From: a virus
IMG/VR virus record: IMGVR_UViG_3300014497_000012
Location: 1-47,387 of that record
Direction: 5' to 3' (one strand)
Length of the DNA stretch: 47,387 nucleotides
The notes beneath the pieces are model-generated. The model ran no database searches, was not told the origin of the DNA, and was given only the letters and a program-made list of their open reading frames with translations. Numbering within the stretch: position 1 is the first letter of the stretch; the number at the start of each line of letters is the position of its first letter. The position numbers and the translations under genes are program-made. Positions 30,176 to 38,231 of this stretch are shown here, piece by piece.

Positions 30176-30985
30176 TTAACAGTTGGTTTTTATAATGTCC
30201 TGGTCAAATATACTGAATGTCAGTTGAACCGTATCCAGTGCCCCACCTTCAACTTTATCCGGCTTATAAGTGATGTCCCTGACCTGGTATTCATTACCAT
30301 TGTGTTTGATCACAATATGTTTCAAGGTGGTCAGGTAGGCCAGGCCTATTGAAATACTATTTGGAACAGGATCCAGTTCAATGTTATAATTAAAGATGAT
30401 GACAGTCCTTAATTTGATTTGCCTTTCATAGCCATCTTTGGTGAATTCCTCTGTGATGTCCGGTGTGACATTGGTGATGAAGGAATTGAAAAATGATCTA
30501 TATCTGAAGCCATCTTCAAAGTTTCTTCCATTGCTGTTGGCATCATCCCAGGCTTCAATTTCCATTGTGATTTCCTGATCACAGATCCCAGTTCCAGGAA
30601 CATGGAAGACTTCAGAAAAATAGGATTTACCATCAACAGCCACTTCAAAATAATAGAAGCCTGAAGGGATCACCAGTGGTTCAGTGGCACCACTTTCACG
30701 GTCAAAAGTAAACTGTTCACCTTTATACACCACCCACTTCTTTGATCCGGATGTTTTGAACTTCACTTTGTCGGAATTGTACTGAAGATCCACATCAAAT
30801 TCATACACAAAGCCCTTTATTTTTACATAATCAATGGCCACGGCTGTATTTGGAACAGCAATCTGAAAAGGGATGTGCCTGTTTCCTGGACTTAAAAACT
30901 TATAAAGCCCATCACTGCTTTCTTTGAACCTTTCCTGTTCAGAAACCCTGTCAAAGAAGGGTAAAGGTTGTATTAAATTTATCAT
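30176..30985 (-). CDS. Distal tail/tip protein, 269 aa
   Basis: It is beta-rich with several long strands and few helices, and starts with NLIQPLPFFDRVSEQERFKE. Family not recognised. It overlaps the 1014-aa tail protein by four bases and precedes the fibre gene, the position of baseplate or tail-tip proteins in siphophages. The role is inferred from location and composition. Confidence 0.6.
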   Translation of the reverse strand: MINLIQPLPFFDRVSEQERFKESSDGLYKFLSPGNRHIPFQIAVPNTAVAIDYVKIKGFVYEFDVDLQYNSDKVKFKTSGSKKWVVYKGEQFTFDRESGATEPLVIPSGFYYFEVAVDGKSYFSEVFHVPGTGICDQEITMEIEAWDDANSNGRNFEDGFRYRSFFNSFITNVTPDITEEFTKDGYERQIKLRTVIIFNYNIELDPVPNSISIGLAYLTTLKHIVIKHNGNEYQVRDITYKPDKVEGGALDTVQLTFSIFDQDIIKTNC

Positions 30986-33900
30986 GCTATAATTGTGTAA
31001 TTAGGTGAAGGTAATATCTGATTTGTTTTGTCATAGGTATAAGTGTAAGTTGATCCAGGGCACCCGTAGTAATTGTAATGAGAAATAGCACCTTCCACAA
31101 TATAAGCCGTTCCGGAAACGCTCCTTTCATATTCAAAAACACCAGCACCATCACCGGTTATGGTTTCCTTTATTTTCAACATCAAACCATAGCCAGTGAC
31201 ATCCAGTGGCTGTGTTCCTGCTGCATCAGAATAGAAATTAATGTACTGATCATATATGGTCTGATTTCCAATGACAGTTTCATCTGTTGGTATTGCCATC
31301 ATTTGCATCATTGGTTCTTCACCGCCACCTGAACAGTTCTGTGTGATGTTTACCTGTTCCTGGTTTAATTTTCTGTACTTCACATAAACCTGTTGCAACG
31401 GGAAAACAGTGATGGAAACACGGCCTGTGTCAGTGTTGTTATTGGAATCTTTCAGCGTATAATCAAACCAGTCATTTCCGGTGAAATTTGCCGGTGGCGT
31501 ATAAACACAGGATCCTGAAGCATAGATCTGAACAGATCCACCGGCTGAAGTGGCCTTTGTTTCCGGTACAACAGAAAGGGCACCGGCACCAGTGTCATTG
31601 GAAAGAACATTGCCAATGGTCAGCGGTCTATTTTGACCAGTGCTGAAGGCTTCATCCCCTGCTATTGGAATAGGTGATCCAGGATGAACAGTTATAGCAA
31701 CCTGGCCATTGTTTGAAGGTGCTTGCCATCTGTCTTTGAACCTGTAAATGATCAGATCCTGACCAGTGAAGCCAGTGTTTGGTTTGTACCTGATTTTTCC
31801 GTTTACAACGGATACTGTTCCGGATGCACTTTTGTACACAATTTCAAGTGTTGCAGGATCCACCACACCTTCATCATCTTCATCATTGGCCAGCACATCA
31901 ATATCAATGGCCAGGTTCATGAAGGTTTCAGCCACATCAGGAACAGCCACCGGTGGATCATTGGTGGAAAGTCCTTCATCAGCTGGATACAGCAATGTTA
32001 AGGTCAAATTTTCTTTATACAGATCAAAAGAAGCTTCAGCCACGGATCCTTCACCTAGTTCAGTAGCAACCAGGTTTTCCGGATCAAAGTCTTCACCACA
32101 ACAAAGGGAAACATCCAAAGTGACTTGTTTTTTGGTAGGGATCACAGTGATGGCTGATGTGGGCACATTGTTCATTGAAAAAGCATAAAACACCCTTTCA
32201 TGTCGCCAAAAGTTTTTGTGTAAATGTGCCCATGACAAATAATTGTTCAGGTAATTTCCACCCATGATGGTTCCTTCAGTGATGATTTCATTTTTATCAT
32301 TACAGGCAACCAAAACAAAACCATCATCACTGATCACCTGGCTGTCTGAAGCTGGGTTGTTCAGTGCCAGTGTCACATCAGTCATGATGTTTTCAACAAT
32401 CCAGTCCTTATCTTCTTTGTCACCCTGTCCCACACATGAATTTGAATACACAATGGGCACCCCTTTAAAGTCACCATATTGATATTTTTCATCAGCAAAC
32501 TGGAAGACTTCCCTTCTGGGCATGTTGTCTATATCATAAGAATATTTCCTTTTTCCGGATCTTAATCTTTCATCCCTTCTTCCAACCAGGTTCAGTCCAA
32601 TACCTTTCCTGAAGTATGACACGTGTTCAATGATAAAATCACCTTTTTCATCAATATCCCACTTCAGCTGGAACATATTGCATATATCTTTATTAAGCTT
32701 ATCAAATGTTAAAAGCCCAATACTGGCATTACTGGTGCTATTTGGCCTTTTTACATCTGATTTCTGGAAGATGATCAGGTTGTCCACCTTTGATTTCTCA
32801 CCGGTTACATAATTTGTGTCATTAAATGGACTGTATGCAATCCCACCTGTTCCCATGTACAGCATGATTTCTTTCTTGTCAGCATCATAATATTCATAAC
32901 GGACAAAGTGAACATTTGCAGGAATGTCTGCAATCTTTACCGCCACTGAAGATCCTGGAACCGGTGGCGCAAGGGAAACAAAGTTTTTGTTTGCATCATA
33001 AAAGCCATTGATGTCCCTGCCACCCAATGTCCCAGGGTTTTGAAGCCATAATTCTTTTCCAGGGATCACCCTGATGAAGTCTGTCACCTTATTGAAAACA
33101 TCTGCATTTGGAATGATCTGTCCCTGTTCATTTAAATCAGCGTATGGTGTTGATTTCAAAGGATTAATCAGATTTACATTCATCAAAGGATCAGGATCCC
33201 AATTGAAGAAACGGGACTTCACACGCATTGGAAAACAGGCCATGTTTGCAAAACCCTGATACACTTCCTGAAGTTTTCTTCCATTGTCAATGGTTCCACC
33301 TACCTGATAATCATAACCATTGTCATACTGGCCACCATAGGATCTGAAGCCATACAAAGCCGGTGGTTTTGCGTACCTGTCCACGCCAATGGAAACCCAG
33401 GGATGTGTTAAAGGAACTGTTGATGTGATCACTTCCCTGACATAAGTGATGTTAAAAGTGTTCTGGTCAGGGAATTCAGGGTTGTTTACTGAATAATAAC
33501 TTTTTATTGTCCATCCATCAGCCTGGTCACCGGATCCACACCATTCATTTCCGGAACCATGTGCCCCTGAAGAACACTGAAGTGTTTCAATGGTGCCCTG
33601 AACCAGTTTCACGGTCTGGTTTGTATAGGCAATAGAAAGGATGTTCTGTTCTACGCTTTTATTCTCATTATAACAGGTATAATTGTCTTCCACTTCAGCT
33701 TCAATTGAAGCGGTGCATTGATCTGGATCCCAGTCAGCATTGTTCAGAAGTAACCTGGCCACAAAGAATGGATTGAAGTCAGAACCACACTTCTTTTCCA
33801 CTACCAATGTAATGGGATCACACCTGTACTGTGATGTTTCAAAGATCCAAAGCCAGTGAAAGTCTTCACCCATGAACAACATCTTTCCTTTCAGTTCTTT

Positions 33901-34026
33901 GCGGAAATAAGCGTTTTCTTCACCTTTTTCCCATGAAACAACTAAAGCGTTCCCATTTGCAGGGAACACTTCCTTTGAACCAGTCCGGCCAATTGCAGTG
34001 AATTTATATTTTATTTGGTCTTCCAT
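30982..34026 (-). CDS. Large tail protein with two tandem-95/cadherin-like domains, 1014 aa
   Basis: Residues 1-660 are a beta-rich tail region with scattered cysteine pairs. Residues about 691-781 and 783-876 are two tandem-95/Ig-like repeats; each opens with a Pro-x-A-x-D unit, carries VLANDEDD or VLSNDTGA, ends a strand in YTP or YKP and then shows F-x-G-D/Q. These domains are usual in secreted adhesins and point to a surface-exposed tip. A Cys/Met-rich tail follows. It overlaps the tape measure gene by 16 bases. Confidence 0.75.
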   Translation of the reverse strand: MEDQIKYKFTAIGRTGSKEVFPANGNALVVSWEKGEENAYFRKELKGKMLFMGEDFHWLWIFETSQYRCDPITLVVEKKCGSDFNPFFVARLLLNNADWDPDQCTASIEAEVEDNYTCYNENKSVEQNILSIAYTNQTVKLVQGTIETLQCSSGAHGSGNEWCGSGDQADGWTIKSYYSVNNPEFPDQNTFNITYVREVITSTVPLTHPWVSIGVDRYAKPPALYGFRSYGGQYDNGYDYQVGGTIDNGRKLQEVYQGFANMACFPMRVKSRFFNWDPDPLMNVNLINPLKSTPYADLNEQGQIIPNADVFNKVTDFIRVIPGKELWLQNPGTLGGRDINGFYDANKNFVSLAPPVPGSSVAVKIADIPANVHFVRYEYYDADKKEIMLYMGTGGIAYSPFNDTNYVTGEKSKVDNLIIFQKSDVKRPNSTSNASIGLLTFDKLNKDICNMFQLKWDIDEKGDFIIEHVSYFRKGIGLNLVGRRDERLRSGKRKYSYDIDNMPRREVFQFADEKYQYGDFKGVPIVYSNSCVGQGDKEDKDWIVENIMTDVTLALNNPASDSQVISDDGFVLVACNDKNEIITEGTIMGGNYLNNYLSWAHLHKNFWRHERVFYAFSMNNVPTSAITVIPTKKQVTLDVSLCCGEDFDPENLVATELGEGSVAEASFDLYKENLTLTLLYPADEGLSTNDPPVAVPDVAETFMNLAIDIDVLANDEDDEGVVDPATLEIVYKSASGTVSVVNGKIRYKPNTGFTGQDLIIYRFKDRWQAPSNNGQVAITVHPGSPIPIAGDEAFSTGQNRPLTIGNVLSNDTGAGALSVVPETKATSAGGSVQIYASGSCVYTPPANFTGNDWFDYTLKDSNNNTDTGRVSITVFPLQQVYVKYRKLNQEQVNITQNCSGGGEEPMMQMMAIPTDETVIGNQTIYDQYINFYSDAAGTQPLDVTGYGLMLKIKETITGDGAGVFEYERSVSGTAYIVEGAISHYNYYGCPGSTYTYTYDKTNQILPSPNYTIIA

Positions 34027-37000
34027 ATCTTCTGTTTATGATTTTCATTGTGAATTACCAGGATGTAATCACCCATGTCCATGATGGCTGGTGTGGTCTT
34101 CTTTTCCATCTTTGCCAAACGGCTTTCAATAGCCTTCAGATAAGCTTCTGATTTGCTGGATCTGTCCACCACCACTGTTCTGGATGTTTCAACTATGGAA
34201 ACATTATTCTGGCTGGCTTCTTTTGAACTTTCCATCTGTGCATAAACACCAGTACCATGAAGTAATTCCTGAATTGAAGTATCAAACATTGACAGGCCAC
34301 TGAAATCATCAGCATTAATGGCCTTCAACAGTTTACGGTGTTTAGCTGAAGACTTTCTTTTGATGACTTCTTCACCTTTTTCAATTTCCAGGATCCCACC
34401 ATCATTTCCATCCATAGAAATGTATTTGTTCCCACCTTCAGAATGGAGTTTTCCACCGGCTGTTCCACCATCAGCCAGTTTGGTGGCATTAAAGGCCGTG
34501 ATTTTGGCAACGGTAAAGGCACCAAACATGGTGGCAATGGCAGCAATGGCCAGCGGAACACCAATAATTGGGATTTTAGAAAACACTTTAAAGATGTCCG
34601 TGGATGCTGTGATCAAATTGGATCCCTGTGCAACACTGTCAGCGATAATTTGCACCCTTTGAAGTGCCTGTTGACGTTTTTGCGCTTCTTCCTGCTGTTT
34701 TAACAGTTCATCCCTTTGTGCTTTTTGCGCCTGAAGTGTCTTCTGTGCATTCTCATAATTGTTGGCATACCCTTTATCCATCAGATCTTTTTCCCTGTCC
34801 ACGGCTTCTTCCTGCTTGTTGATCAGTTCATCAATTGCATCAATTTCTTCTTTAATGATGTCCACTTTTGCCTGTGCAGCTTCAGCCAGACCACCGAACA
34901 GATCAGAAGTCACCTGGCCAGCCATTGCAGCTGCATCAGCATAATCCATCAGTTTATCACCGTTAATCCCTAAATAATCAAACAGGTCACCTTTTTTGTC
35001 TTTCCCAATGGCATTCACTTCATCCTGTGCTTCTTTGATGGCTTTCATCAGTTTGTTGACTTCTTCAGTTTTGGCTGGATCCGTAGCAATCAAAGCCAGC
35101 CTTTTCTTTGCAAATTCAATGTTTATCTTCAGGATCTCTGTCTGGGTTTCCCTTTCAAAAGAAACTTCACTTTGATTTTCCCTTTTCTTCCTGGCATATA
35201 GGCCAGACAAAGCCAGATCTTCCTGTTTCTGAAGACTTTCATCCATTGATTTGATCTTCACATCAGTCACTTCTTTTTCCTGCTGGATCACCAGTAATTT
35301 TTCCACTTCAGTGGTCATTGTTCCGGCTTTTTTTGCGTTCTGCCTGATCAGGTCATATCTTTCATTGATGGCGTTAATCTGTGCATCCGTGTCATCTTTT
35401 AAAACACGTGCAATTTCACGCTGTGATGATTGTCTGGCCTTCAGGTCATCTTCTTCACCTTTTTTAATGATAGCTGTGACACGGGATTTTGACTGGCTTT
35501 CTTCTTCTTCAATTAAAGCATTGATCTGTTTAACCAGTTCAGGAAATATGGTTCTTCTGTTTTCCAACTCCCTGACACGGTTTTGTGATCCAACGGTTTC
35601 AGCTGCAACAGCCTTTGTGGTGGCATCTTCAATTGCTTCAATCTGTGAACTGTAAAAATCATTTTCCAGTTTTACACGTTCCGCATTTAATTGCTGTATA
35701 CGCTGCAACCTTTTGTTTTCGGCCTTTTCATCTGCTTTATCCCTTCTTTTCTCGGCTTTTCCAGTGATTTCATCAATTTTCAACTGAAGTGCATCAGCTT
35801 CATCCAGCAATTTTTGCCTGTCTTCAGCGTTTCCACCTTCAATGCCAGGGATGATGTTTTTTGCAGTGGCACGTAAATCAGTGACCTTTTGTTCCATTTC
35901 AACCACAGAAAGGATGCCTTTTGCCGTTCTTTCAGCCTTTGCACGCTCCATGTTCTGATCCTTCAGGTTTCTTAAAACATTTTGAGCAGCAACCAACTGT
36001 TCACCAAAAGCCTTTCTGTCATCATCAATTTTCCTTTTACCACGTGTGGAAAAGGCACCATCATATTCATTTAAAACTTTGGTGTATTTACTGGAAAGTT
36101 CCTGAACCAGCTTTTCCTGGTTATTGATCAGTATGCCCAAAGCACGTGAACTGGCATTTGAAAGATCCCCAAATTGCTGTTGTGCTTTACTGGTTAATTC
36201 ACCAATAATTTTATTATCAGCAATATTGGGATTGAACATCCTAGCAAAGAAGCCAGCCACAGCCAGCTTTGCATTTGCCCAATTTGTTGACATCCTTCCA
36301 ACTTTATCAGATAAGGTGTCCACGTAAGCACCTGAACTTTGCATTTCCCTTTCAATCAAATTGGAAACAGCGGTGGTGAAATCACCTGTCTTTTTAAACT
36401 CCTTTTGAATGTCAACAATAGAAATCCCTAAATTATCAATGATCCTGGAAGATTTCCTTCCAAGACCATCAATGATGTTGTTCGTTAATTTGTTGACATC
36501 TTCACCGGTTGCAGCTGCCCTTTGTGAAGCAAAAGCGAGGAAACCACCCAGTTTTTCAATCGGGATATTAAAGTTATTAGCCTTCACAGTCAGCTTTTCC
36601 AGTTCCAGATCAGCCACAAAGCCATCTGTTTCTTTCCTTAACTTTTTCATAGAAGCACTATCACCCAGCCTGGAAAATGCACGTTCAATACCTGAAGCCT
36701 TCACACCCAAACTGAACAGTTCCTTTCCGAATTGGACAACGGTGGTCAAAGCAAAGGCAATACCCAAAGCTGAAGCAATATTGTTCAGGCCATTGACCAA
36801 TCCCCTGGTTTGGTTTGTGGTTCTTTGGATCCTGTTCCCCATTTCATCAAATCCCTGCCTTCCAGCGTTGGTGGTCTGCCTGATTTGACGTTCCAGTCTT
36901 TCAATGGCCACATTGTATCTTCTGATGGCTGCTGTGTCCGTGGCCTGTGTCAGTTGGTCTTTATAGGTTTGCAAAGCCTTTTTCAGCTGTTCAATTGACT

Positions 37001-37208
37001 TTGTGGTGGAATTTAAAGCGGTGGCCTGTTGTGTGATGTTCCTTCCCAGATTGTTGGCAGCATTAGCAGCATTGTTAAAGGTCTGCTGGGTATTATTCCC
37101 CATGTTCAGTGCTGTCTGGTTCAGATCCTGAAGGATCCCTTTTGCCCTTCCAGCATCCCGAATCATTTTTTCAAGATCCAGTCCTAATGGTAAATTATAT
37201 TCATTCAT
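34011..37208 (-). CDS. Tape measure protein, 1065 aa
   Basis: It is the longest gene. Coiled-coil segments (about 45-120, 480-560 and 820-890) alternate with hydrophobic segments (near 148-162 and around 900-950), the usual build of proteins that set tail length and enter the envelope at DNA injection. The position right after a frameshifted chaperone pair is the classic siphophage order. It starts five bases after the end of the -1 frame extension. The phage tail is therefore probably long and flexible. Confidence 0.9.
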   Translation of the reverse strand: MNEYNLPLGLDLEKMIRDAGRAKGILQDLNQTALNMGNNTQQTFNNAANAANNLGRNITQQATALNSTTKSIEQLKKALQTYKDQLTQATDTAAIRRYNVAIERLERQIRQTTNAGRQGFDEMGNRIQRTTNQTRGLVNGLNNIASALGIAFALTTVVQFGKELFSLGVKASGIERAFSRLGDSASMKKLRKETDGFVADLELEKLTVKANNFNIPIEKLGGFLAFASQRAAATGEDVNKLTNNIIDGLGRKSSRIIDNLGISIVDIQKEFKKTGDFTTAVSNLIEREMQSSGAYVDTLSDKVGRMSTNWANAKLAVAGFFARMFNPNIADNKIIGELTSKAQQQFGDLSNASSRALGILINNQEKLVQELSSKYTKVLNEYDGAFSTRGKRKIDDDRKAFGEQLVAAQNVLRNLKDQNMERAKAERTAKGILSVVEMEQKVTDLRATAKNIIPGIEGGNAEDRQKLLDEADALQLKIDEITGKAEKRRDKADEKAENKRLQRIQQLNAERVKLENDFYSSQIEAIEDATTKAVAAETVGSQNRVRELENRRTIFPELVKQINALIEEEESQSKSRVTAIIKKGEEDDLKARQSSQREIARVLKDDTDAQINAINERYDLIRQNAKKAGTMTTEVEKLLVIQQEKEVTDVKIKSMDESLQKQEDLALSGLYARKKRENQSEVSFERETQTEILKINIEFAKKRLALIATDPAKTEEVNKLMKAIKEAQDEVNAIGKDKKGDLFDYLGINGDKLMDYADAAAMAGQVTSDLFGGLAEAAQAKVDIIKEEIDAIDELINKQEEAVDREKDLMDKGYANNYENAQKTLQAQKAQRDELLKQQEEAQKRQQALQRVQIIADSVAQGSNLITASTDIFKVFSKIPIIGVPLAIAAIATMFGAFTVAKITAFNATKLADGGTAGGKLHSEGGNKYISMDGNDGGILEIEKGEEVIKRKSSAKHRKLLKAINADDFSGLSMFDTSIQELLHGTGVYAQMESSKEASQNNVSIVETSRTVVVDRSSKSEAYLKAIESRLAKMEKKTTPAIMDMGDYILVIHNENHKQKIWKTK

Positions 37209-37213
37209 GGGTT

Positions 37214-37905
37214 TTATTTTTGTGTGCTTAATTTTTTACGTTCCAGGTCAGCTTCAAATTCATCCATTAAGTAAAAGAATTCAATAAAATCTGATCTTCT
37301 TAAAGAATCATACTGGCTTTTATCACCTTTTGAAAGGTTCCAGAAGACTTTTGTCCAGTATTTCCTGTGTTCCAGGACTTCCAGGTGGATGTATTTTAAA
37401 ACTTCCTGATTTTTAACGCTGTTAGAAGTTGGTTTTCCGTTTAGTGGGAACCGGAATGGATGGCATTCACTAAGCCTTCTCCCAAACCTTTTACTTTTAA
37501 CAGCGAAAATTCCAAAAAACCATTGATCCCCAAACCTTCAGCCTTCCAGTCTTCAATCTTCCTGGTGATCATATCTTCTGTGATGGTGCCACGGTCTTCA
37601 TCTTTAGCATTCATGAACAGGGCGCAAAACTTCAGGATCATTGGTTCACGGTGGTATATTTTGGAAATCCCGTTAACCATGTTATGTGCCATGATCACAA
37701 TGGAAGAAACCTTGTTTTTATCTACCATGTCAATCACTTTGAACCAGTTTTGTTGCATTTCTTCGTATTCCACGCCAAAACCCAATTGAATAACCAGTTC
37801 ATTCATGAAGATCCAGCGGTCAATTGACAGGTTGTCTTCAATAAAATATTCAGTACCGTTTGCCGTGAAAGGCTGTCCATTGCTGGGTATTTCTTTTAAT
37901 TCCAT
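37214..37905 (-). CDS. Tail assembly chaperone, -1 frameshift fusion (G-T type), about 230 aa
   Basis: After residue 131 of the 154-aa chaperone, a slip of one base backwards at T-TTT-TTG (37513-37519) opens a frame running to TAA at 37214-37216. It adds about 99 residues, helical and charged, ending MDEFEADLERKK. Without the slip, 37209-37440 would be an unexplained coding-like gap. This matches lambda gpG-gpGT, where a small share of ribosomes make the long form that contacts the tape measure. The fusion is inferred. Confidence 0.75.
37441..37905 (-). CDS. Tail assembly chaperone (G type), 154 aa
   Basis: Start taken at ATG 37905 (MELKEIPSNG), two bases after the upstream membrane-protein stop; a longer frame would overlap that gene. 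The protein is helical from residue 30 on, with no recognised motif. It lies directly upstream of the tape measure gene, which with the overlapping -1 frame identifies it by position and architecture, not by sequence similarity. Confidence 0.7.
   Translation of the reverse strand: MELKEIPSNGQPFTANGTEYFIEDNLSIDRWIFMNELVIQLGFGVEYEEMQQNWFKVIDMVDKNKVSSIVIMAHNMVNGISKIYHREPMILKFCALFMNAKDEDRGTITEDMITRKIEDWKAEGLGINGFLEFSLLKVKGLGEGLVNAIHSGSH
37513..37519 (-). other. Predicted -1 ribosomal frameshift site (T TTT TTG)
   Basis: The minus strand reads TTTTTTG with frame-0 codons TTT TTG after the T of GGT, a perfect X-XXY-YYZ heptamer. It lies within the region where the -1 frame is open, about 25 codons before the frame-0 stop. 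No strong downstream hairpin was seen by eye. Confidence 0.75.
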
Positions 37906-37907
37906 AA

Positions 37908-38231
37908 TTATTTGTCTAGTATTTGGTAATAAATGTATGTTACAATTTTGGCCACAAATATGGTTTGCATGATAAACCACAAATGAAGCCACCAGTGATA
38001 TTGAAAGTTATTTTGAACCAGAACCATGTAAAAGTAAAACCAAAGCGCCCACTGTCCGGAAACACAGTACTGGCACCCAATTAATGGCTTGAATAACCAT
38101 TCTGGAAGTTTACGTTCTAAAAAGTCAAAAACCTGGTTCAAAATCTGACCTGGTTCCGTTAATATGTTCGAGAAAGTGAAGGCTGAAATGGCAATGGCCA
38201 CTGTTAACCAATTTAGAAGAAGGATGTTCAT
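37908..38231 (-). CDS. Membrane protein inside the tail gene block, 107 aa
   Basis: Three hydrophobic spans (about 5-22, 56-72 and 80-100) and a CQYCVSGQW motif near residue 53, resembling the C-x2-C turn of DUF1360-like membrane proteins. A membrane protein between the tail terminator candidate and the chaperone is unusual for a siphophage. It could act in envelope assembly, superinfection exclusion or DNA entry. Spacing of two to three bases on both sides shows it belongs to the operon. Confidence 0.7.
   Translation of the reverse strand: MNILLLNWLTVAIAISAFTFSNILTEPGQILNQVFDFLERKLPEWLFKPLIGCQYCVSGQWALWFYFYMVLVQNNFQYHWWLHLWFIMQTIFVAKIVTYIYYQILDK

Follow-up and report, generated by a model that had tools for sequence, protein, structure and literature searches.

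A programmed −1 ribosomal frameshift yielding G and GT-type tail chaperones was predicted, with a probability of about 0.93, at the heptamer T TTT TTG in the IMG/VR virus record IMGVR_UViG_3300014497_000012 (the window, meaning the whole stretch of 47,387 bases analysed), whose late genes lie on the minus strand. The majority of ribosomes would yield the 154-aa protein G. A few would slip one base back on U UUU UUG, aided by an RNA stem 7 nt downstream, and would proceed in the −1 frame to give a predicted GT fusion of approximately 230 aa. The analogy with lambda suggests a role for each part, with G coating the tape measure protein and T recruiting the tail tube subunit, and the G:GT ratio would matter in tail assembly. 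We infer the slippage, its ribosomal nature, its efficiency and the roles of both products from sequence and from this analogy. The frameshift would account for a stretch ahead of the tape measure gene that is bound to escape gene callers, and would add a divergent group of Bacteroidota phages, unrecognised by current family libraries, to those with a frameshifted tail chaperone.

Reading frames and slippery heptamer

The zero-frame gene G (37441–37905, minus strand), delimited by its open reading frame and by alignment with 15 distinct relatives, ran from an ATG at 37905 to a TAA stop at 37443–37441. The initial annotation had described a startless stretch, open in the −1 frame, between this 154-aa gene and the tape measure, and this was confirmed. 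The −1 frame was free of stops from 37537 to 37217, extending 224 nt beyond the stop of the 154-aa ORF and overlapping the zero frame by 97 nt. Its sole ATG, GTG or TTG was the ATG at 37267, 17 codons from the end, so that the extension had no usable start. The extension T (37214–37513, minus strand) comprised approximately 99 codons, from the first −1 codon at 37513 to a TAA stop at 37216–37214. The chaperone gene lay directly upstream of the gene for a 1065-aa tape measure protein (34011–37208, minus strand; phrog_20660, tail length tape measure protein, E 5.7e-19), the ATG of which (37208) was located 5 nt past the extension stop.

The heptamer T TTT TTG (37519–37513, minus strand) lay inside the overlap in the register X XXY YYZ, as had been claimed, with the zero-frame codons GGT TTT TTG encoding residues 129–131. 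It was the single in-register occurrence of T TTT TTN among the 6,064 codons of 15 late genes of the window. By chance, 0.005 in-register T TTT TTN sites were expected in the overlap, and 0.15 for any X XXY YYZ with Y being A or T.

Repeated rounds of alignment queries against IMG/VR and GTDB contigs gave 15 distinct relatives, with G identities of 19–36%. These included a Chitinophagaceae MAG (L007), Fibrisoma montanum (L008; virus entry L013) and a Saprospiraceae MAG (L009). Searched as a single sequence with tblastn, G matched no named phage, and the link required profiles; a query of viral contigs with the tape measure also found no relatives. The sequence T TTT TTN was present in phase at the homologous codon in all 15 relatives (16/16 including the window), a few residues past a KI(E/D)DW motif. 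The heptamer was TTTTTTG in the window, TTTTTTA in L009, L014, L015 and L022, and TTTTTTT in the others, several of which had an in-register TTTTTTC or TTTTTTG next. In the Porphyromonas phage phage026a, the N-terminus of the tape measure was 34% identical to that of the window, and no recognisable G/T-like pair was found upstream of it (L023:2878–3737).

The zero-frame residues at the slip site were mostly D-F-F or D-F-L across loci. Given the local amino acids and the codon usage of each locus, the probability that all 16 loci choose NNT TTT TTN was approximately 1e-10 under an assumption of independence, and serves only as a guide since the loci are related. The site was kept in L008 despite a GC content of 57% and only 14% of Ala codons ending in T, and in L016 although GAT made up 29% of its Asp codons. 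Constructs in E. coli shifted far less on U_UUU_UUA and U_UUU_UUU than on A_AAA_AAG (PMC5009743). This weakness of U runs counts against a frameshift, tempered by the low level that suffices in lambda.

Candidate stimulatory stem and alternative explanations

A stimulatory RNA element is common, though not universal, at frameshift sites of the G/GT type. The initial annotation had noted no obvious hairpin downstream of the heptamer. This held for compact hairpins in the window (absent in a 60-nt folding, z 0.25), but a longer-range stem had been missed. Upon folding of 140 nt, CGCUGUUA (37498–37505, minus strand), 7 nt after the heptamer, paired perfectly with UAACAGCG (37417–37424, minus strand), forming 8 bp across a loop of 73 nt. 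The best perfect stem with its 5′ arm 4–9 nt after the heptamer was compared with dinucleotide shuffles in 14 loci. Stems at this spacing were enriched family-wide (Fisher p=1.3e-7), with 8 of the 14 loci below 0.05; for the stem of the window alone, p was approximately 0.03. At eight control offsets the values were 0.006–0.85, with the minimum at the neighbouring offset on the upstream side. Other stems included a 10-bp hairpin in L011, 9-bp stems in L008 and L009, and 8-bp stems in L012, L015 and L018, and the perfect-stem test gave none in L007, L014/L022, L016 and L020. Where stems were present they kept their position, while their sequences and loop lengths varied.

These features also bear on whether the frame change arises during transcription, through slippage of RNA polymerase on the T run, rather than at the ribosome. 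Runs of about 8–10 T's occurred in L003, L008, L016, L019 and L021, and T runs longer than 8 have been listed as transcriptional slippage sites (PMC3711429). However, the window, L009, L014, L015 and L022 had just six T's, which is under that length. Moreover, the T run always included the last base of one codon together with both codons that follow it, a phase fit for tandem tRNA slippage and needless for a polymerase, and stem enrichment was confined to the spacing that ribosomal −1 sites typically show. Based on the stem spacing, the five loci with just six T's and the fixed codon phase, a ribosomal shift was favoured and transcriptional slippage in this family was considered improbable.

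In all 13 relatives whose contig extended far enough, the −1 frame was open past the G stop and closed at the tape measure gene. The extension proteins of L007 and L012 were 38% and 29% identical to that of the window, and other pairs shared 9–23%. According to the initial annotation, a frameshift would be refuted by relatives that had no heptamer or that provided the extension with a start codon. Neither was found: the heptamer was universal, as given above, and no start position was conserved. An ATG was present in the extension of some relatives (at +15 past the G stop in L012 and at +18 in L016), as would be expected if the extension were a separate gene with its own start or translated by re-initiation, with no fusion formed. 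We regard this as very improbable, since the sole possible start in the window leaves 17 codons, start positions were unconserved and the −1 frame was open back to the heptamer in every relative. The overlap was also unchanged between L014 and L022. Upstream of the overlap, G of these two loci differed at 60 of 428 sites, of which 45 were third positions; the overlap had 0 differences in 97 nt and the extension 9 in 207, and sliding divergence had a local minimum at the overlap. Local recombination could partly account for the identical overlap, given that the extension, too, was well conserved.

Splitting of a once continuous gene by sequencing error or decay was judged similarly remote: homopolymers are prone to sequencing errors and cultured Bacteroidota phages carry the homologous chaperone as one in-frame ORF, but 16 distinct sequences, drawn from many samples and assemblies, had their two frames related in the same way at one and the same codon, the heptamer was conserved, substitutions were biased to third positions and the in-frame family carried an A run there rather than a T run.

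Relationship of G to annotated tail assembly chaperones

No match above the cut-off was obtained for G in Pfam or NCBIfam. A profile of G matched a family of phage chaperones of approximately 250 aa (E 7.5e-7), and an hhalign comparison of the GT fusions with 81 sequences of this family gave E values of 5e-10 (local) and 1e-12 (global). G of L007 alone matched phrog_8914 (E 0.003), with the match ending at profile position 123, just ahead of a KKK motif. The T extension matched the C-terminus of the long family weakly (E 0.04), and homology of the T part to a known chaperone C-terminus is not claimed on the strength of such a match.

AlphaFold2 models of G (pLDDT 75) and of L035, a member of the long family (pLDDT 88), agreed in their predicted order of elements (strand-strand-helices-strand-helix-helix). 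Both the T run (residues 129–131) and the KKK motif (residues 131–133) were located in the last helix of the modelled N-terminal domain. Searches of PDB folds with both models found no solved relative, including tail chaperones. A BFVD fold search gave weak matches, some of them named tail assembly chaperone (E 0.06–0.1). Homology of G to proteins annotated as tail assembly chaperones is thus supported at the level of sequence profiles. Given the lack of a match to solved folds and the weak BFVD matches, homology with the lambda or HK97 proteins is not established.

The heptamer of lambda is G_GGA_AAG. In lambda, gpGT is made alongside gpG through programmed −1 frameshifting (Levin 1993; Xu 2004, 2013; for a review, PMC5009743). 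Like that system, the window has a short ORF with a startless −1 extension directly ahead of the tape measure gene and an X XXY YYZ heptamer within the overlap. The gpG/gpGT-type logic proposed by the initial annotation was supported by the conserved heptamer and extension and by the profile-level homology of G to annotated chaperones. Unlike lambda, the window has a U run and a supported downstream stem, it belongs to Bacteroidota phages, and its G matched no characterised tail chaperone in sequence or fold. Some T4-like phages obtain both chaperone forms from two gene copies (PMC10885494), and other routes to the same protein pair are therefore known. No report of a T-run or A-run site in Bacteroidota phage chaperones was found in the literature searched, the coverage of which left out most subscription journals.

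A conserved A10 run in the sister family

The sister family of PHROG 8914-type chaperones (approximately 250 aa) was assembled from named phages and IMG/VR contigs and comprised 81 distinct sequences. It includes phages of Bacteroides, Parabacteroides, Alistipes, Flavobacterium, Croceibacter and Elizabethkingia, and several records name the protein tail assembly chaperone. Members compared with the window were those of the Bacteroides phages B124-14 and B40-8, the Elizabethkingia phage TCUEAP2, the Croceibacter phage P2559Y and the Flavobacterium FPSV and Fpv phages. They shared with G a homologous N-terminal domain, the same predicted secondary-structure order and mostly the same neighbours, with a small CxxC membrane protein gene before and the tape measure gene after. 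In contrast to the window, the chaperone was encoded by one in-frame ORF, an A run took the place of the T run, and stems were not enriched after it (Fisher 0.86), a result that speaks against ribosomal shifting driven by a stem in this family.

The codons AAA AAA AAA were present at about codons 127–134 in 81/81 distinct sequences (for example L025:4595–4604; also L024, L026–L032 and L034–L111), at the domain boundary corresponding to the T run of the window. The A run was 9–11 long in all 81 and exactly 10 in 78, with GTC AAA AAA AAA AT. as its usual form. One search pattern held KKK but accepted either codon, so that the codon choice was unbiased by the search. AAA made up on average 51% of the Lys codons in the sister loci, and 11–17% in L041, L051, L064 and L069. 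Only four other runs of at least 9 A's occurred elsewhere in 383 kb, and just one of nine other KKK motifs was encoded by three AAA codons. Stops followed the A run after a median of 2 codons in the −1 frame and 4 codons in the +1 frame, compared with 11 and 12 codons elsewhere in the same genes. That the A10 site is a constrained sequence is strongly supported by these comparisons.

The chaperone of the cultured relatives thus seems to be a single fused protein, yet a near-invariant A10 run sits where a short form should end. In E. coli cassettes, frameshifting rose from 10% with 7 A's to 40% with 9 and 63% with 11, and dnaX makes a truncated product from such A runs (PMC3711429). The conserved run and its nearby stops most simply suggest a reversed, dnaX-like logic in the sister family, in which the protein would be long by default and slippage, probably transcriptional, would give a short form of approximately 135–155 aa, matching the size of G in the window. 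The proposed logic resembles that of dnaX, where a shift on an A run truncates the zero-frame product (PMC3711429), although the proteins are unrelated, and the logic of dnaX differs from that of the window's own gene.

We consider it likely that homologous Bacteroidota phage chaperones keep a short/long pair by opposite recoding logics at one domain boundary. In the family of the window, the short form would be the default and a stem-assisted −1 ribosomal shift on the T run would give the long form; in the family of the cultured phages, the long form would be the default and slippage on the A10 run would give the short form. Selection would then keep the ratio of the products rather than the mechanism. 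If the A10 run makes a short form, two recoding mechanisms with opposite defaults would serve one ratio requirement in homologous genes. This opposite-logic site is a more novel result than the frameshift of the window, and it can be tested in phages such as B40-8 and B124-14, the hosts of which are in culture.

Further observations were made on annotation and neighbouring genes. The tail assembly chaperone of the Elizabethkingia phage TCUEAP2 (L024:2844–3614) was annotated from 2907, while the alignment placed its start at 2844, 21 codons earlier. The small CxxC membrane protein gene (GCQYCxSGQxALW or NCDFCLSFW) directly preceded the chaperone gene in most members of both phage families (window 37908–38231, minus strand; L025:3623–3928; L024:2584–2847; L004:5393–5749; L005:7621–7959), and its product was annotated as DUF1360 in the Parabacteroides phage PDS1. 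After the tape measure gene, a 1014-aa gene of the window (30982–34026, minus strand) encoded GFTGxDxFxYxxxD-type repeats that appeared cadherin/Ig-like by eye and were likewise present in the matching gene of L004; its product is probably a distal tail or adhesion protein.
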